Shown: one piece after another, positions 42,483-49,883 of the stretch
Numbering within the stretch: position 1 is the stretch's first letter
Layout of the letters: the number at the start of each line of letters is the position of its first letter
Source of the DNA: Dongia rigui
GTDB lineage: Bacteria; Pseudomonadota; Alphaproteobacteria; Dongiales; Dongiaceae
Assembly (NCBI RefSeq): GCF_034044635.1
Contig: NZ_JAXCLX010000002.1
Location: 186,001-250,000 of the forward strand
Reading direction: 5' to 3'
Length of the DNA stretch: 64,000 nt
Notes under the pieces: generated by a model
Told to the model about the DNA's origin: nothing
The model's input: the letters and a program-made list of their open reading frames with translations, nothing else
Database searches by the model: none
Translations under genes and position numbers: made by a program

Positions 42483-43109
42483 CTAGTCGGCGATGGCAGC
42501 GCGCTTGAGCGTGCTGTAGGCCTGATTGACGACCTTCAGCTTTTCCTCGGCCACCTTGTCGCCGCCATTGGAATCGGGGTGCAGCTGTTTGGCCAAGGTC
42601 TTGTAGCGGGTCTTGATGGCATCCCAATCCACCGGCGCCACCAAATCGAGCACGGCCAGCGCCTGGTCCTCGGCCGACAGTTTGCGCCGGGCCCGCGCCC
42701 GGGCTTCTTTCTCGGCCTGGCGTTTGGCTTGCCCCATCCGCGCCTCGATATCGGCCTGGACCTCTTCCGGGAAGAGGTCGAAGCGTGTCTTGGCGTCGAA
42801 TTTGTACTGCCGGCCGCTGGCGGAACGCTGGCCTAGCTTCCAGGTCGGACGATCACCGACGATCGACGAACGCACCGATTTTTCGATGTCAGCAGCGCCC
42901 ATGCCGGCATAATAATCCCAGCTACGATTGTATTCCCGGACGTGGTCCAGGCAAAACCAATAGTAGTCGTTGAGCCGGTCGCGCGATTTGGGCGCGCGAA
43001 AGGTACCGGCTTCGTGGCAGCCGGCGTGGTTGCAGGTCACAGGGCGGGCTGGCGGGTCGGGATCGAAATGGCTCCGACGCCGGTGACGGATGGTCTGTTC
43101 TTTCGACAT
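42483..43109 (-). CDS. DnaJ-domain protein
   Basis: A 208-residue protein from ATG 43109, with an alternative start 48 bases upstream. The N-terminal part contains CNHAGCHEAGTFRAP and YYWFCLDHVREYN, a Cys/His pattern that may bind metal. Residues 80-150 are charged, and the C-terminal 65 residues form a J domain with the essential HPD (KQLHPDSNGGD). It probably recruits DnaK for a specific client; its place before cobS-cobT is conserved in related bacteria, but a link to cobalt chelation is not shown. Confidence 0.82.
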   Translation of the reverse strand: MSKEQTIRHRRRSHFDPDPPARPVTCNHAGCHEAGTFRAPKSRDRLNDYYWFCLDHVREYNRSWDYYAGMGAADIEKSVRSSIVGDRPTWKLGQRSASGRQYKFDAKTRFDLFPEEVQADIEARMGQAKRQAEKEARARARRKLSAEDQALAVLDLVAPVDWDAIKTRYKTLAKQLHPDSNGGDKVAEEKLKVVNQAYSTLKRAAIAD

Positions 43110-43225
43110 GAGATTAAGTATGAGGTGCGGCAAGCATTCTCGCAAGGGCGAGAGCACTTGCCGGAACAGATGTCGCAGGCTAAGTCAGTGCGGCAACACA
43201 TTTTTTACGAAGCGGATTTGATCTC

Positions 43226-43714
43226 ATGACGATGTGCCATTGCGGTTCTGGGAAACAGCTCGAGGCCTGCTGCCTGCCGCTCATCAACGGGGCGCCGGCG
43301 CCGACGGCCGAGGCGCTGATGCGCTCGCGCTATTCCGCTTTCAAGGAGCGGAACCTCGATTATATCGACAAGACCCATGCCAGTGACATGGACGAGCCCT
43401 TCGACCGTGCCGAAGGCGAAGTCATGATGAACGAGATCGACTGGCGCGGACTCGAAATCCGCCGCGTCGTCGCTGGTGGCGAAAAGGACGAAACCGGCGA
43501 GGTCGAGTTCATCGCGCGCTTCAAGCGCCAGGGCCAGGCTGGCGTCCATCACGAACTGGCGACCTTCAAGCGCGAGAACGGTCGCTGGGTCTATGTTGAT
43601 GGCGAGCTCAACCCGAAGGCGCCGCCGCGCCGCGTCGTGCAGGTCGGCCGCAATGATCCTTGCACCTGCGGTTCAGGCAAGAAGTATAAGAAGTGCTGCG
43701 GCGCAGCTGCCTGA
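43226..43714 (+). CDS. YchJ-like protein with two SEC-C-type zinc motifs
   Basis: A 162-residue protein of the YchJ (UPF0225) family. It begins with a zinc-binding [13 protein letters not shown] and ends with a canonical SEC-C motif, [18 protein letters not shown]. The middle has an NTF2-like fold ([23 protein letters not shown]...[18 protein letters not shown]). The SEC-C motif in SecA binds SecB and ribosomes; the role of YchJ proteins is unknown. It is divergent from the DnaJ-like gene and followed at 10 bases by the BolA gene. Confidence 0.82.
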
Positions 43715-43724
43715 GACGGGGGCG

Positions 43725-44000
43725 ATGATGGCCAAGGTTGCGGACGGCATGGCAGCGAAGCTCACCGAAGCCTTCGCGCCCACGCATCTCAACGTGATTG
43801 ACGAGACCAACCAGCACCATGGCCATGCGGCCTGGAAGGAAAGCGGCGAAACCCATTTCAAGGTGGAGATCACCGCCGCTGCCTTCGCCGGCAAGAGCCG
43901 CGTCGAGCGCCAGCGCCTAGTCTATGCAGCCCTCGCCGAAGATCTCAACGCCGGCGTTCACGCGCTGGCCTTGGTCGTGAAGGCGCCCGGCGAAGCCTAG
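43725..44000 (+). CDS. BolA family protein
   Basis: A 91-residue BolA-type protein of class II fold that works with monothiol glutaredoxins in iron-sulfur trafficking. It contains HLNVIDETNQHHGHAAW, with the conserved His region, SGETHFKVEI, and the late KSRVERQRLVYAAL. GGGGG precedes the ATG; ATG 43728 is equally possible. It is probably co-transcribed with the YchJ-like gene. Confidence 0.87.
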   Translation: MMAKVADGMAAKLTEAFAPTHLNVIDETNQHHGHAAWKESGETHFKVEITAAAFAGKSRVERQRLVYAALAEDLNAGVHALALVVKAPGEA

Positions 44001-44147
44001 CCAAAACCCGGCATCCGAAATATCCGCCGAGGCGGATTGACGCAGGGGCTGCCATTTCCTACTTGTTTTAGGCGTATCGTCGAACGCGGCGGTCACGTTT
44101 TGGTTAACGCCGCTTTTCATTCGCATATGCAGCCAGGAGTCGAGAAT

Positions 44148-44179
44148 TTTTCAAGACAGCCTTCGAAAAGTCTTGAAAA
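44148..44179. promoter_or_regulatory. Perfect 10-bp inverted repeat before the PspA operon
   Basis: TTTTCAAGAC (44148-44157) and GTCTTGAAAA (44170-44179) flank a 12-base spacer, 30 bases before the first ORF. The right arm contains CTTGAA, which with TATGTT at 44197-44202 makes a possible promoter of sigma-70 or RpoH-like type. Initiation there would give an almost leaderless mRNA. Confidence 0.5.
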
Positions 44180-44208
44180 GGATAAAATGAGTCCTTTATG
44201 TTTTATCG

Positions 44209-45360
44209 ATGGTCAAGAAACGTCGATACGAGCAATTCGGCCAGTGCCGTCTGACCCTGCACCCGGATGCAGCCGGCATCGCCGCCCTGCGCCGGTCCTT
44301 GGACGCCTATCGCGAACTGCTTCTTTGGCTTGATGAAGCCGTGCCGGCGGATCAATCGGCCGACCTCGTGGCGCTTCATCGCCAGTATTACGAATCCGCC
44401 CGCGCGCGCTCACATCTGCCGGCGCAGGCGGTGGTGTTGACGTTAAAGGATTGGGCGCAGCGGCGGCGTGGCTTGAACGTCGAGGGCATGCCCTTCGACG
44501 AAAAGCTGTTCTCCGTGCGGGACATCCAGTCGCTGTCGTTAGCGACAGTCGACGGCAGGATCAGCGTGCCCTTTGCGCTGACCGACTACAGCGAGGTTTG
44601 GCATGGCAGTGCGCCGGCAAGACTGGTCGAGCGCGGCGGCCGCTTCGAGTTCCTGATTTCCGCCGAGTTGGCTTTTGTTGAAACCGCCTTGAAGGAGAAG
44701 ACCATGGCAACGGAAAACGCTCTCAGCAGGATCGGCCGCGTGATCTCTGGCATGACGCATGCCGCCATCTCGGCCGCTGAGCAGAGCAACCCGCAGGCAG
44801 TGATGGAACAAGCGGTCCGCGAGATCGACTCGGCCGCTGACGAAGTTCGTGTCGAACTCGGCAAGGCTCTCGCCGAACAGCACCGGGTCGATGCCCGGCG
44901 CAAAGAACTGCTGCGCGAACGCGACGAACTCGACGAGAAGCTAAAGCTCGCTGTGGCACAAGGCCGGGACGATCTGGCCGAAAGCGGTATTGCGCGCCAA
45001 CTCGATATCGAAGCGCAGGCGGCGGTGCTTGACCGCTTGCTCGATGATGTCGCCGACCGCATCGCTCAGCTCAATCAGTCCCTGGACGCCGTGAATGCCA
45101 GCCGCCGCGAGGCCGAGGAGCGCCTGAAGGAAATGCTGAAATCACAGCAGGCGACGGCGCATGAGACAGCCGCGTCGGCAGGCGGCAAGATCAGTGTTGC
45201 GCGCAAAGTCGAGCGGGCCGAGGCCGTCATCTCGCGCGTGAGCGGGGTCCCCGGCGGCCCCGCATATGAGCAGGCCAAGGCTATCGACGAACTCAATCGG
45301 CTCGCACGCCAGCAGGCGATCCAGGACCGTCTTGCTCAGTTGAAGTCACGCAAGAATTGA
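44209..45360 (+). CDS. TnpB-like N-terminal domain fused to PspA/IM30
   Basis: A 383-residue ORF. Residues 1-160 resemble the N-terminal (REC/WED) part of IS605-type TnpB proteins: ALHRQYYESARARSHLPAQA, FDEKLFSVRDIQSLSLATVDG-RISVPF, and ARLVERGGRFEFLISAEL. The RuvC nuclease part is absent. Residues 166-383 are a coiled-coil PspA protein (NALSRIGRVISGM...AVMEQAVREID), which protects the inner membrane under stress. AAGGAG six bases before the internal ATG 44704 should give a 218-residue PspA alone. The upstream start has no clear Shine-Dalgarno. Two products are likely. Confidence 0.72.
   Translation: MVKKRRYEQFGQCRLTLHPDAAGIAALRRSLDAYRELLLWLDEAVPADQSADLVALHRQYYESARARSHLPAQAVVLTLKDWAQRRRGLNVEGMPFDEKLFSVRDIQSLSLATVDGRISVPFALTDYSEVWHGSAPARLVERGGRFEFLISAELAFVETALKEKTMATENALSRIGRVISGMTHAAISAAEQSNPQAVMEQAVREIDSAADEVRVELGKALAEQHRVDARRKELLRERDELDEKLKLAVAQGRDDLAESGIARQLDIEAQAAVLDRLLDDVADRIAQLNQSLDAVNASRREAEERLKEMLKSQQATAHETAASAGGKISVARKVERAEAVISRVSGVPGGPAYEQAKAIDELNRLARQQAIQDRLAQLKSRKN
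44704..45360 (+). CDS. pspA: PspA/IM30 from internal start
   Basis: Alternative product of the fusion ORF. AAGGAG at 44692-44697 lies six bases before ATG 44704, the best ribosome binding site in the region, and the predicted 218 residues match a normal PspA length. The protein is almost wholly helical and highly charged. YqiJ-like and flotillin genes follow with the same orientation, a known gene partnership in membrane-stress operons. Confidence 0.65.
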   Translation: MATENALSRIGRVISGMTHAAISAAEQSNPQAVMEQAVREIDSAADEVRVELGKALAEQHRVDARRKELLRERDELDEKLKLAVAQGRDDLAESGIARQLDIEAQAAVLDRLLDDVADRIAQLNQSLDAVNASRREAEERLKEMLKSQQATAHETAASAGGKISVARKVERAEAVISRVSGVPGGPAYEQAKAIDELNRLARQQAIQDRLAQLKSRKN

Positions 45361-45394
45361 CGTTGGGCCTCTCGGCCCGAAGAAAGGTGATGAC

Positions 45395-46108
45395 GTGAAC
45401 GACGGATCTGTTCTGGAGTTCATCTCCGGCGCTGGTACGCGGCCCTTTGCAATCGCCGGCATGATTCTGCTTGGCTTGCTGGCGATCGAGGTCATCAGCA
45501 TGTTTATGGGCGTGTCGCTGTCGGCGAAGATCGATGCCATGTTCGATTTCGATGCGCCGGATGTGCCCGACCTCGATCACGGAGGTATCGCTGCCGGCGG
45601 CCTCGACGCCCATGGCATCGAAGGCGGCATGTTCGGGACGGCCTGGGACTGGCTCAATGCCGGCCGCGTGCCGCTGTTGGTCTGGATCATGGGCTGGCTC
45701 GGCACGTTTGCTGCCTTTGGCTATCTCGCCCAGGCTTTAGCTCATCTTGTCATCGGCTTTCTGCCGGCATGGATCGTAGCCTTTCCCGCCGCGGTTGCTG
45801 CGGTGCCGGTGACGCGCAACGTGAGCCGTTTTATCGGCTATGTCGTGCCGCGTGACGAAAGCTATGCCGTGACGGCGGATGATCTGGTCGGTCTGACGGG
45901 CGTCGTCGCTTTAGGCCCCGTCACAGCCGAGAATATTGGCCGCGTGACGGTGCGCGATGCGCACGGCAACAAGCATTTTCCCTGGGTGCGTTCGGCCGCG
46001 TCCGATGTCGAAATCGCCATCGGCGCGACCGTTTTGCTCACTGAGCGGCGCGGCACCGAATACATCGCCATTCCGGCGGATCCCAAGCTTGTCGCCGGAA
46101 AACGCTAG
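45395..46108 (+). CDS. yqiJ: YqiJ/NfeD-like inner-membrane protein
   Basis: A 237-residue protein starting at GTG 45395 after AAAGGTGATG. It has hydrophobic segments at about 17-39, 85-106 and 108-135, and a C-terminal OB-fold (about 155-230: DLVGLTGVVALGPVTAENIGRVTVRDAHGN). This is the NfeD/YqiJ pattern. Such proteins pair with flotillins in membrane microdomains, and the flotillin gene follows directly, so a joint role with PspA and YqiK in membrane integrity is likely. Confidence 0.8.
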   Translation: MNDGSVLEFISGAGTRPFAIAGMILLGLLAIEVISMFMGVSLSAKIDAMFDFDAPDVPDLDHGGIAAGGLDAHGIEGGMFGTAWDWLNAGRVPLLVWIMGWLGTFAAFGYLAQALAHLVIGFLPAWIVAFPAAVAAVPVTRNVSRFIGYVVPRDESYAVTADDLVGLTGVVALGPVTAENIGRVTVRDAHGNKHFPWVRSAASDVEIAIGATVLLTERRGTEYIAIPADPKLVAGKR

Positions 46109-46182
46109 TCCACTTGCACAGTTTGATATGCCGTCGCCCAGTCTGATGGTCAGCTGTCGCGCAGCATAAGGAGGGAGCTGAA

Positions 46183-47904
46183 ATGATTGATCTGGTGATT
46201 GCTGTTGCCTTGCCGGCTTTGATCGGCCTGGTCGCCATCCTGGCGATCGGCCTGGTGATTGCAAGGCTCTATGCACGCGCCGAAAAGGACCGATCCTATG
46301 TCCGCACGGGGCTTGGCGGGCAGAAGGTCGTGCTGGACGGTGGCTCCATCGTGCTGCCGGTCTTCCAGTCCATCCGCTGGGTCAATCTGCAGACATTGCG
46401 CCTCGACGTGCGGCGTGAAAATGCCGACGCCATGATCACCAAGGATCGCATGCGCGTCGACATTGGCGTCGAATTCTATGTCCGCGTAAAGCCGGACCAG
46501 CAGTCGATTGCGCTCGCGGCACAGACTTTGGGTGACCGCACCAACGATGCCGACGCCCTGCGTGAACTGGTCGAAGCAAAATTTGTCGACGCCCTTCGTT
46601 CAGTGGCGGCGACGATGGCGCTGGCCGACCTTCAGGAAAAGCGCGCCGACTTTGTGCGCCGCGTGCAGGAAACGGTGGCAAGCGATCTCGAGCTCAACGG
46701 TCTTGAACTCGAAAGTGCCTCGCTGACCAAGCTCGACCAGACGGACACCAAGTTCTTCAACCCGAACAACGCCTTCGACGCTGAAGGTCTGGCGGCGCTC
46801 ACCAAGATCACCGAAGCCAAGCGCCAAGAGCGGAACCTTACCGTGCGCGCGGCCGAAGTGGCTATTGCGCAGCAGGATCTAGAGGCGCGCCAGAAGACCC
46901 TCGACATTGACCGGCAGAAGAAGGAGGCCGAGCTGTCGCAGGAGCGGGACATCGTCAATAAGACGGCCGAAACCCGTGCGGCGGCCGCGCTGAAAGAAGC
47001 CGAAGCGCAGCGGGCCGAAGCCGAAGCCCGCATCACGACCCAGCAGGCGGTGGCGTTGCGTGAAGCGGAAGCAAAGCAGGCGCAGGAGCAGGCGCGCATT
47101 TCGGCCGAGCTCGCCATCCAGCAGCGCAAGATCGAAGCCGACCGCACCGCAGAGACACTTGCCATCGGCAAGAAGCGGGATATCGAGCTCGCCGACCAGG
47201 AACGCGCGATTGCCGTTGCCGATCGCAGCCGCGCTGAATCCGACGCCCGCGCCGAAGCCGAAAAGGCGCGCGCACTGGCCATCGCGGCAGAAGAATCGGT
47301 GACGACGGCGCAGCAGGTGGCGATCGCGGAACGCGAACGCCAGATTGCCGTGCTGGCTGCCCGTCAGGCCGCAGAACAGGAAGCGACCAAGGTCACGGTT
47401 CAGGCCCAGGCTGAGCGCAATGCGGCAGATGATCGTGCCGAAGCCGTGCGCACGTCGGCAAAAGCGGACTCGGACGCGGCCCTCATCCGGGCCGAAGCCC
47501 AGGCCAAGACTTATGCCGTCGAGGCGGAAGGCCAGCGTGCTATCAACGAAGCGCGCAACGCCCTATCCGCGGCGATGGTCGAACTTGAGGTGATGCGCGA
47601 ACGCTTGCGTATTATCCCGGTGGCAATTGCCGAGGCCGTGCGACCGCTTGAGAAAATCAGCGACGTGCGTATCGTCGACATGGGCGGCGGTCTGCCGGGC
47701 GGGCAGATTGCCGGCGAAAATGGCGGTGGCCGTATCGACAATTTGATGAGCCAACTGCTCGCCTACCGCGCCAATGCGCCGGTGATCGATCAGCTGCTTA
47801 AGGACGCCGGCTTCACGGAAGGCACCGACCTGGTAAACCGCCTCATGGTTGGTGCGCAGCCGGTCGCCAAAACGAATGGCAGCCAAGCGCCGGCGGCAGA
47901 GTAA
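46183..47904 (+). CDS. yqiK: Flotillin (YqiK-like)
   Basis: A 573-residue flotillin. An N-terminal membrane helix (about 5-28) is followed by an SPFH domain (about 45-210: KVVLDGGSIVLPVFQSI, DIGVEFYVRVKP, LNGLELESASLTKLDQTD). A long Ala/Glu/Gln-rich coiled coil runs from about 215 to 480, and a Gly-rich tail ends the protein. It scaffolds ordered membrane regions. AAGGAGGG precedes the ATG at good spacing. It is the last gene of the PspA-YqiJ-YqiK operon; a terminator follows. Confidence 0.88.
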   Translation: MIDLVIAVALPALIGLVAILAIGLVIARLYARAEKDRSYVRTGLGGQKVVLDGGSIVLPVFQSIRWVNLQTLRLDVRRENADAMITKDRMRVDIGVEFYVRVKPDQQSIALAAQTLGDRTNDADALRELVEAKFVDALRSVAATMALADLQEKRADFVRRVQETVASDLELNGLELESASLTKLDQTDTKFFNPNNAFDAEGLAALTKITEAKRQERNLTVRAAEVAIAQQDLEARQKTLDIDRQKKEAELSQERDIVNKTAETRAAAALKEAEAQRAEAEARITTQQAVALREAEAKQAQEQARISAELAIQQRKIEADRTAETLAIGKKRDIELADQERAIAVADRSRAESDARAEAEKARALAIAAEESVTTAQQVAIAERERQIAVLAARQAAEQEATKVTVQAQAERNAADDRAEAVRTSAKADSDAALIRAEAQAKTYAVEAEGQRAINEARNALSAAMVELEVMRERLRIIPVAIAEAVRPLEKISDVRIVDMGGGLPGGQIAGENGGGRIDNLMSQLLAYRANAPVIDQLLKDAGFTEGTDLVNRLMVGAQPVAKTNGSQAPAAE

Positions 47905-47924
47905 GCTGACCACGCGATTTAATT

Positions 47925-47958
47925 GCCGGGCCGGCTTCTTAGTCGGCCCGGTCTCTTT
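47925..47958 (+). terminator. Rho-independent terminator after yqiK
   Basis: CCGGGCCG (47926-47933) pairs with CGGCCCGG (47944-47951), followed by TCTCTTT. The structure overlaps the stop codon of the convergent DUF2889 gene. Confidence 0.7.
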
Positions 47959-48565
47959 CGCCATCAGCCGGCGGCTGATAGAACTGTGGCCAGTGGCTTC
48001 GCACGACGTCGCCGTCGCTGGCCAAGGCATGACAGGTGTCGATGAAGCCCGGCCTCTTGCCGGCTGTGGTATCCGCCGGCGGGCCGTCGCGCTTGGTAAT
48101 GCCGGCATCGCGCTTGGCCTTTTCGCGATAGCCGTAGATCGTCTGGAACGCGACCGTTCCCATCGCACGCAGCATTTCAACGTGGTGCGTGCAGCCATGG
48201 GTGCCACTGAACTGGTTGCGCAAGGTGCGCGACCAACCCTTTGCCACCGTGGCCCCTTTGAGAGCGTGGAAGGCCGGCGTGATATGGCCGCAGATCTCGA
48301 AGGGCGAGGCCGCGGTGACCACGGCGATATCCTGGACCGTGAAATGGTCATCAAGCGTCAGGCGGATGATCATGTCATGCACCGCCTCACCGGGTGCGAC
48401 CGTGCCGCGCCAGTCATTGGGGAAGGCGTAGTCCTTGGTATCGACCATGCGGCCTTCGATATCGAACAGCCCGTCGGCGCGGCGGAAACCACGAAAGTCA
48501 TAGCGGCGGGTATGCAGCGGCTCGCGCGCCGAGGGCTGCGGCAGGGATTTCAGCGGTTCAGCCAT
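47939..48565 (-). CDS. DUF2889 family protein
   Basis: A 208-residue protein from ATG 48565, which overlaps the end of the CNNM-type gene by eight bases. RRYDFRGFRRADGLFDIEGRM, PGEAVHDMIIRLTLDDHFTV and FSGTHGCTHHVEMLRAMGTVAFQT are the conserved blocks of DUF2889. The Cys/His cluster of the last one suggests a metal site. No reaction is known for the family. It is the last gene of the AroK-AroB-CNNM-DUF2889 run. Confidence 0.75.
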   Translation of the reverse strand: MAEPLKSLPQPSAREPLHTRRYDFRGFRRADGLFDIEGRMVDTKDYAFPNDWRGTVAPGEAVHDMIIRLTLDDHFTVQDIAVVTAASPFEICGHITPAFHALKGATVAKGWSRTLRNQFSGTHGCTHHVEMLRAMGTVAFQTIYGYREKAKRDAGITKRDGPPADTTAGKRPGFIDTCHALASDGDVVRSHWPQFYQPPADGERDRAD

Positions 48566-49883
48566 GTGCCCGCGCTCCACTGCGCTTTCCATTTGCTCCC
48601 GGCGCGGCGACAGGGGTGGCATCTGCCGGGGGTGTCACCTTGATGCGCGTCAACTGATTGCGCTGTCGCTCCAGGATCTCGAAGCGGAAACCGTGAAAAG
48701 CGAAGACCTGGCCGGCAAAGGGAATCTGCTGCGCTTCGTGGAGCACCAAGCCGGCGACGGTCGATGCTTCCTCATCCGGCAAACGCCAGCCATATTCGCG
48801 GTTGAGGTCGCGCAGTGTCACCGTGCCGTCCATTTCCAGGCTGCCATCCGCTTGCGGTGTCACGCCAGCCACCGCCACATCATGCTCGTCGGAAATATCG
48901 CCGACGATCTCCTCCAGAATATCTTCCAGTGTCACGATGCCCATGAGGGCGCCGTATTCGTCGACCACCAGCGCGAAATGCTCGCGCCGCTCGCGGAAAG
49001 CCTCCAACTGAGCGAGGAGGTTGGTCTGGTCGGGAATGAACCAGGGTGCTGCCGCCAGGCCGACGATATCGAGGCCGTCGAGTTTCCAATGATTGGCCTG
49101 CACCGCGCGCAGCAACGCCTTGGCATGCAGCACGCCGATGATGTTGTCGGCCTCGCCGCGATAGAGCGGCAACCGGGTGTGCGGACTTTGCAGTACCTCG
49201 GCCACCAATTGCTCGATCGGCTGGTCGGCGTCGATCATGGTCATGTTGCGGCGATGCACCATGATGTCGGATACCGGCACGTCCTCGAGGTCGAGGATTG
49301 AATGCAGCATCTGCCCGGCTTCGCGGATCTCTTCATCGGCCCCGGCATGGAGTGCAATGGCGCCGCGCAGTTCTTCAATGCGCTCTTCGTTGCCCAGTTC
49401 GTTGACGACCTTGATGCCGAAGAGACGCAGCAGGCCGCTGCAGATCATCTGTGTGAGATTCGTGATCGGGCTGGTCGCCCGGACCAGAAACAGCACCAGC
49501 GGCGCCAAGGTCAGGGCTGAGCGATCCGGATGGTTGATGGTGAAGGTCTTGGGCAGTACCTCGCCGATCACGAAGATGACGATGGTGGCAACGATGCCGG
49601 CATAGACCGAGCCGGCGGTACCGAAGAAACCGACGAAGATATGGGCTGAAAGAATGGCGATGAAGCTGTTGACGCAGGCATTGCCGAGCAGGATCGTGCC
49701 GATGACCTGCTCCATCCGGCCATGCAACTGCTTGACCAGGATCGCGCGCTTGAAGCCTTGCTCCGCCAGATTGAGCATGCGCGCCTTCGATGCCGCGGTG
49801 ATGGCCGTCTCGGATCCGGAGAAGAAGGCTGACCCCATGATCAGCAGGACCAGGACGCCCAGATTCAGCAGGACCAAATCCAT
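48558..49883 (-). CDS. CNNM/CorC (HlyC) family membrane protein
   Basis: A 441-residue protein with a DUF21 membrane domain (four hydrophobic segments in residues 1-190, SAFFSGSETAITAASKAR), a CBS pair (about 205-330: VPVSDIMVHRRNM, RLPLYRGEADNIIGVLHAK, VVDEYGALMGIVTLEDILEEI) and a C-terminal CorC_HlyC domain. Members are linked to magnesium export and cobalt resistance; the older haemolysin name is misleading. ATG 49883 is taken; a GTG nine bases upstream is possible. An open frame extends upstream over unrelated sequence. Confidence 0.84.
   Translation of the reverse strand: MDLVLLNLGVLVLLIMGSAFFSGSETAITAASKARMLNLAEQGFKRAILVKQLHGRMEQVIGTILLGNACVNSFIAILSAHIFVGFFGTAGSVYAGIVATIVIFVIGEVLPKTFTINHPDRSALTLAPLVLFLVRATSPITNLTQMICSGLLRLFGIKVVNELGNEERIEELRGAIALHAGADEEIREAGQMLHSILDLEDVPVSDIMVHRRNMTMIDADQPIEQLVAEVLQSPHTRLPLYRGEADNIIGVLHAKALLRAVQANHWKLDGLDIVGLAAAPWFIPDQTNLLAQLEAFRERREHFALVVDEYGALMGIVTLEDILEEIVGDISDEHDVAVAGVTPQADGSLEMDGTVTLRDLNREYGWRLPDEEASTVAGLVLHEAQQIPFAGQVFAFHGFRFEILERQRNQLTRIKVTPPADATPVAAPGANGKRSGARAHG

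Follow-up and report, generated by a model that had tools for sequence, protein, structure and literature searches.

Why does a membrane-stress gene begin with half of a transposon nuclease? The question is raised by a stretch of 64,000 nucleotides from Dongia rigui (contig NZ_JAXCLX010000002.1, positions 186,001 to 250,000; hereafter the window), in which one open frame at 44209-45360 encodes a protein of 383 amino acids whose current annotation is 'PspA/IM30' only. All features of the window described here lie on the forward strand. An earlier sequence-only reading of the window proposed that a TnpB-type N-terminal part reads in frame into PspA and that the RuvC nuclease of TnpB is missing; TnpB is a transposon nuclease and an ancestor of CRISPR Cas12. 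Both proposals hold. The frame has no internal stop, and residues ~166-383 form the PspA_IM30 helical domain (PF04012, E 7e-11 for the PspA part alone). The RuvC nuclease with its catalytic D-E-D and the zinc ribbon are absent from the fusion, as there is no PF07282 or PF01385 match and the alignment to TnpB stops before RuvC-I. Because a unique palindromic DNA site of its own precedes the gene, our analysis suggests that a transposon relic has been turned into a self-regulating membrane-stress switch.

The ancestry of residues 1-165 (44209-44703) could be seen only through tblastn, profile-profile and fold comparison, because direct sequence searches of Pfam, NCBIfam, PHROGs and PDB gave no match above noise. 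A tblastn search of plasmids with these residues returned the same fusion first, in Shinella, Bosea, Rhizobium and Agrobacterium (E 1e-17 to 6e-21), followed by annotated TnpBs of Allomeiothermus (E 6e-5) and Rhodothermus (E 1e-2). The reverse search with the N-terminal half of the Allomeiothermus TnpB retrieved TnpBs and transposases and then, among the matches listed, two Shinella PspA fusions (E 2-3e-3). When 36 N-domains were compared with 12 TnpBs using hhalign (Prob 99.0, E 2.4e-18), columns 12-160 fell on TnpB 7-167, a stretch that stops just short of RuvC-I, whose motif GVDLG begins at ~170. An AlphaFold2 model of the N-domain (predicted local distance difference test score (pLDDT) 72.5, predicted template modelling score (pTM) 0.72; alignment of three sequences) had as its eight best PDB matches AsCas12f, SpCas12f, ISDra2 TnpB (8ex9, in which RuvC is unresolved, 8h1j and 8exa), OsCas12f, Fanzor2 and LaTranC, with no credible PDB match beyond Cas12f, TnpB, Fanzor and TranC. 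Viral contigs held no relative of the domain, and phages gave weak matches only. Since tblastn in both directions, the span of the profile alignment and the matches of the predicted fold agree, residues 1-165 are, as judged by sequence and model, the complete WED and REC (pre-RuvC) half of a TnpB, in keeping with the TnpB likeness first noticed over some 160 residues.

What remains of TnpB, and how it differs from known relatives, bears on how it might work. Residues 12-160 cover the complete pre-RuvC half of the TnpBs of IS200/IS605 and IS607 (NF040570; PDB 8exa, 8ex9, 8h1j), with the same beta-alpha-beta order and with L17, Y61, R65, D97, T113, G116 and R117 in common. Unlike those proteins, the fusion has no RuvC, zinc ribbon or adjacent guide RNA, is joined to PspA and is more neutral, the net charge of its TnpB half averaging +0.1 versus +7.6 for the TnpB halves compared. 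TldRs are also domesticated TnpBs without nuclease activity that are tied to a non-transposon gene, and both they and the fusion are proposed to repress (PMC13418256). However, TldRs retain an inactivated RuvC and a guide RNA, whereas in the fusion RuvC is gone, no adjacent guide was seen and the gene's own promoter holds the proposed site, a palindrome.

The TldR precedent, nuclease-dead TnpBs serving as RNA-guided regulators, together with the contacts that WED and REC make with guide RNA in TnpB, could be taken to mean that the half is still RNA-guided, by a guide encoded elsewhere. We consider this highly unlikely because the basic charge is largely lost, RuvC is wholly absent rather than mutated, and no room is left for an adjacent guide: the TnpB half continues directly into pspA, and yqiJ either overlaps or starts 34 nt later. 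No Rfam match was found in 43000-49000. The sequence-only reading had the fragment regulating or localising the stress protein, possibly through RNA; regulation is still suggested, as DNA-binding autoregulation, by the unique promoter palindrome described below, and the RNA-binding or RNA-guided mode finds no support.

TnpB N-terminal halves were also encountered on other plasmids. The Thermobacillus composti plasmid NC_019898.1 (L036:3998-4528) encodes a free-standing half of 176 amino acids without RuvC, which matches the fusion-domain profile (1.6e-16) and TIGR01765 (2.3e-9) and may represent a second domestication or else a truncated copy. Rhodothermus marinus pRMAR01 (L080:1301-1738) holds an unannotated half that is probably a truncated copy.

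Transposon genes often decay by losing the nuclease half, and with RuvC missing the Dongia gene might be a decayed fragment that happens to stay open, as the earlier reading allowed. Searches of other alphaproteobacteria speak against this. The N-domain profile was present in 7 of 387 genomes sampled across the class and in 26 of 397 genomes of one order; carriers span at least nine alphaproteobacterial families, plus plasmid-borne copies, and homologous loci keep the N-terminal part (the same fusion is found in genomes G001 and G004, for example). The gene lies in a conserved operon, chromosomal or on a plasmid, and the frame is open into pspA in every whole-genome match except G005, where the TnpB half (L004:1501-1974) is a separate gene ending in TGA with yqiJ directly next and no pspA between. 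Retention in so many genomes is far beyond chance. The ratio of nonsynonymous to synonymous substitution rates (dN/dS) of the TnpB half is 0.04-0.19, close to that of PspA, which shows that this half is under purifying selection and is not a decayed remnant. In the PspA tree the fused PspAs form one clade (support 89/88) beside two unfused PspAs from similar operons, and the trees of the TnpB half and of the PspA domain contain the same main groups; on these phylogenies, one old fusion event, inherited since as a unit, is shown. No PF01385 TnpB was found in the source genome or in the sampled genomes of the Dongia family. With the low dN/dS, the spread over at least nine families, the single origin and the conserved promoter palindrome, decay can be regarded as ruled out with near certainty, and the competing idea of a domesticated TnpB fragment is borne out by the wide conservation and the selection on it.

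The element that points to a function is a 21-bp palindrome, AAAGGAT-AAAATGA-GTCCTTT (44177-44197), a putative operator present in 37/37 loci compared. Its consensus, AAAGSAC-N7-GTSCTTT or a close variant, stands directly 5' of all copies, usually 10-12 nt from the start codon, and in most loci it occupies the spacer between TTGAAA and TATnnT boxes. In the window, a -35-like hexamer TTGAAA (44173-44178) overlaps the left operator arm, with CTTGAAA conserved there in most relatives, and a -10-like hexamer TATGTT (44197-44202) lies 18 bp from the -35, which predicts a transcript start at ~44209, at the ATG itself. The arms covary, reading CAC/GTG in most loci, GAC/GTC in Dongia and L060, and ACAC/GTGT in L068-L070. 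The exact pattern occurred in 8 of the 34 genomes searched, at a single place in each and always at a fusion-family gene, and was absent from the searched genomes without the gene. Other carriers hold variants outside the exact pattern; with one mismatch allowed, extra matches were as frequent as for a reversed control pattern. Within the loci compared, the palindrome tracks the TnpB half rather than PspA, because G005 keeps it without pspA, and G017 and G054, which have pspA-yqiJ behind a different small gene, do not have it. The promoter therefore contains a specific site confined to the gene that it drives, and since such a one-target palindrome is the mark of an autoregulator, the fusion is a putative one. 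Upstream neighbours vary between lineages, so that no other linked regulator is conserved. Just 5' of the operator there is a second inverted repeat, TTTTCAAGAC-N12-GTCTTGAAAA (44148-44157 and 44170-44179), which is kept in L024 and partly in L025.

A short loop, covarying arms and a position usually 10-12 nt before the start codon would also suit an RNA hairpin, through which the long form could bind its own mRNA and repress its own translation; TnpB WED domains contact RNA, and the fold beats shuffled sequences in L030 and L004 (z -2.3 and -3.1). We think this improbable, because in most loci the palindrome lies between the -35 and -10 boxes and should then not be transcribed, and because the hairpin of the window is no better than its shuffles (z -0.2). 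Symmetry is also maintained with few G-U pairs. A duplex DNA site remains the preferred reading of the palindrome.

The gene has a second feature that, like the palindrome, is new relative to the sequence-only reading, namely an internal PspA start. PspA/IM30 has its own ATG and a putative short form of 218 amino acids (44704-45360, PF04012), preceded by an internal Shine-Dalgarno sequence, AAGGAG, at 44692-44697. An ATG stands exactly at the normal PspA start in 34/35 fusions, the exception being L070 with a valine codon, and the internal Shine-Dalgarno is strong in 31/35 loci; over the fusions its duplex energy averages -9.1 kcal/mol versus -2.2 at 102 other in-frame ATGs. Relatives keep it despite different linker codons, the residues over it varying by lineage (KEK, KKE, EEN, MEE); because different residues encode it, selection appears to have acted on it as a ribosome site rather than on the peptide. 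The long start has no Shine-Dalgarno in relatives (mean duplex energy 0.1). Since it is also located where transcription should begin, translation of the long form probably starts on a leaderless message. Given the separate start codon and strong Shine-Dalgarno of the PspA part, free PspA is probably produced from this gene alongside the fusion.

How might these parts work together? In TnpB and Cas12f, the WED and REC half reads a short T-rich motif (transposon- or protospacer-adjacent motif, TAM or PAM) in duplex DNA, and each arm of the palindrome ends in CTTT. PspA binds damaged membrane. In the PspA-PspF system of Escherichia coli, operon expression responds to the level and localisation of PspA. 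The protein that PspA inhibits in that system is a distinct sigma-54 activator, whereas in the fusion a single chain would serve as both sensor and putative repressor. In Bacillus subtilis, PspA is recruited to the membrane by an SPFH protein together with two membrane proteins (PMC8581546). We propose that the RuvC nuclease and zinc ribbon of a TnpB were lost, and that the remaining half, which would no longer employ a guide RNA, became fused in frame to the pspA that leads a pspA-yqiJ-flotillin operon. Two proteins would result, the long form from the start without a Shine-Dalgarno and free PspA from the internal start. As a dimer or higher oligomer, the long form would bind the 21-bp palindrome in its own promoter and repress the operon; upon membrane damage, the PspA part would be drawn to the membrane with YqiJ and flotillin, taking the long form off the promoter so that more PspA, YqiJ and flotillin are made. 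Binding to the palindrome, repression by that binding and release by stress are steps that we infer. We give about even chances to the full model, in which the TnpB half binds DNA and autoregulates without a guide, PspA links it to membrane stress and two products are made. Somewhat short of even, and accordingly more tentative, is the wider claim that a motif-reading TnpB half, without guide and nuclease, became a palindrome-binding repressor and, fused to an ESCRT-III-like membrane protein, makes a one-protein membrane-stress switch on its own operon, with an internal start providing the free effector as well.

Several observations weigh against this model. The near-neutral mean charge of the TnpB half disfavours strong DNA binding, although some TnpBs are likewise neutral or acidic. 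The structure model was built on three sequences, with Foldseek E-values of just 3e-3 to 4e-2, and support for the fused-PspA clade is moderate. The -35 of Bradyrhizobium-like members is without its CTTGAAA part, a few loci have a weak internal Shine-Dalgarno (three copies at -2.9), and the regulator acting at the palindrome could be an unlinked protein. The TnpB half might then be a protein-protein adaptor or cap, either shielding the N-terminus with which PspA binds membrane or docking PspA on YqiJ or flotillin. A near-neutral charge would suit such a role, and a fusion at the PspA N-terminus would be expected to block its amphipathic helix. CesT/Tir-PspA dyads adjoin band-7 and YqiJ genes (PMC11237479), and CesT/Tir-like partners may act in this way in other PspA operons. 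However, a palindrome found at a single place per genome, and only with a fusion-family gene, would be unusual for an unlinked regulator, and G005 keeps the domain without a fused PspA; we therefore regard the adaptor as rather unlikely.

If the autoregulatory model is true, TnpB has here been domesticated by a route in which nothing but its DNA-reading half survives, the nuclease and apparently the guide having been discarded. It would then be testable whether the surface with which TnpB/Cas12 proteins read the TAM/PAM can act by itself as a sequence-specific DNA binder, and PspA-YqiJ-flotillin operons in many alphaproteobacteria, including those on Agrobacterium, Rhizobium and Shinella plasmids, would gain a regulator. 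More than 98% of PspAs show little architectural variation, the exceptions being NlpC/P60, PspAA and tandem repeats (Ravi et al., PMC11237479); that survey names other PspA fusions, and the word transposase is not in its text. In the open-access literature searched, a TnpB-PspA fusion is not described, TnpB and PspA occur together only in a pneumococcal vesicle paper, and TnpB and flotillin occur together nowhere; most subscription papers and preprints lie outside that search, so novelty is not proven.

The remaining genes of the operon are those of known PspA/IM30-YqiJ-flotillin operons, CesT/Tir-PspA dyads included, which likewise carry an extra gene before pspA (PMC11237479, PMC8581546); unlike in those operons, the front partner here is a TnpB half fused in frame. 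A yqiJ-like membrane/OB-fold protein (45395-46108; PF21001, PF07290) begins 34 nt past the fusion, and a flotillin (SPFH/Band 7; PF15975, PF01145) at 46183-47904 corresponds to the third operon gene in annotated relatives. yqiJ is directly downstream in all loci tested, with flotillin after it where seen. The two closest unfused pspA-yqiJ operons have a small protein in front of pspA (L005:2175-2696, reverse strand, and L006:884-1516, forward strand), which has no Pfam match above cut-off and appears ribbon-helix-helix-like by eye.
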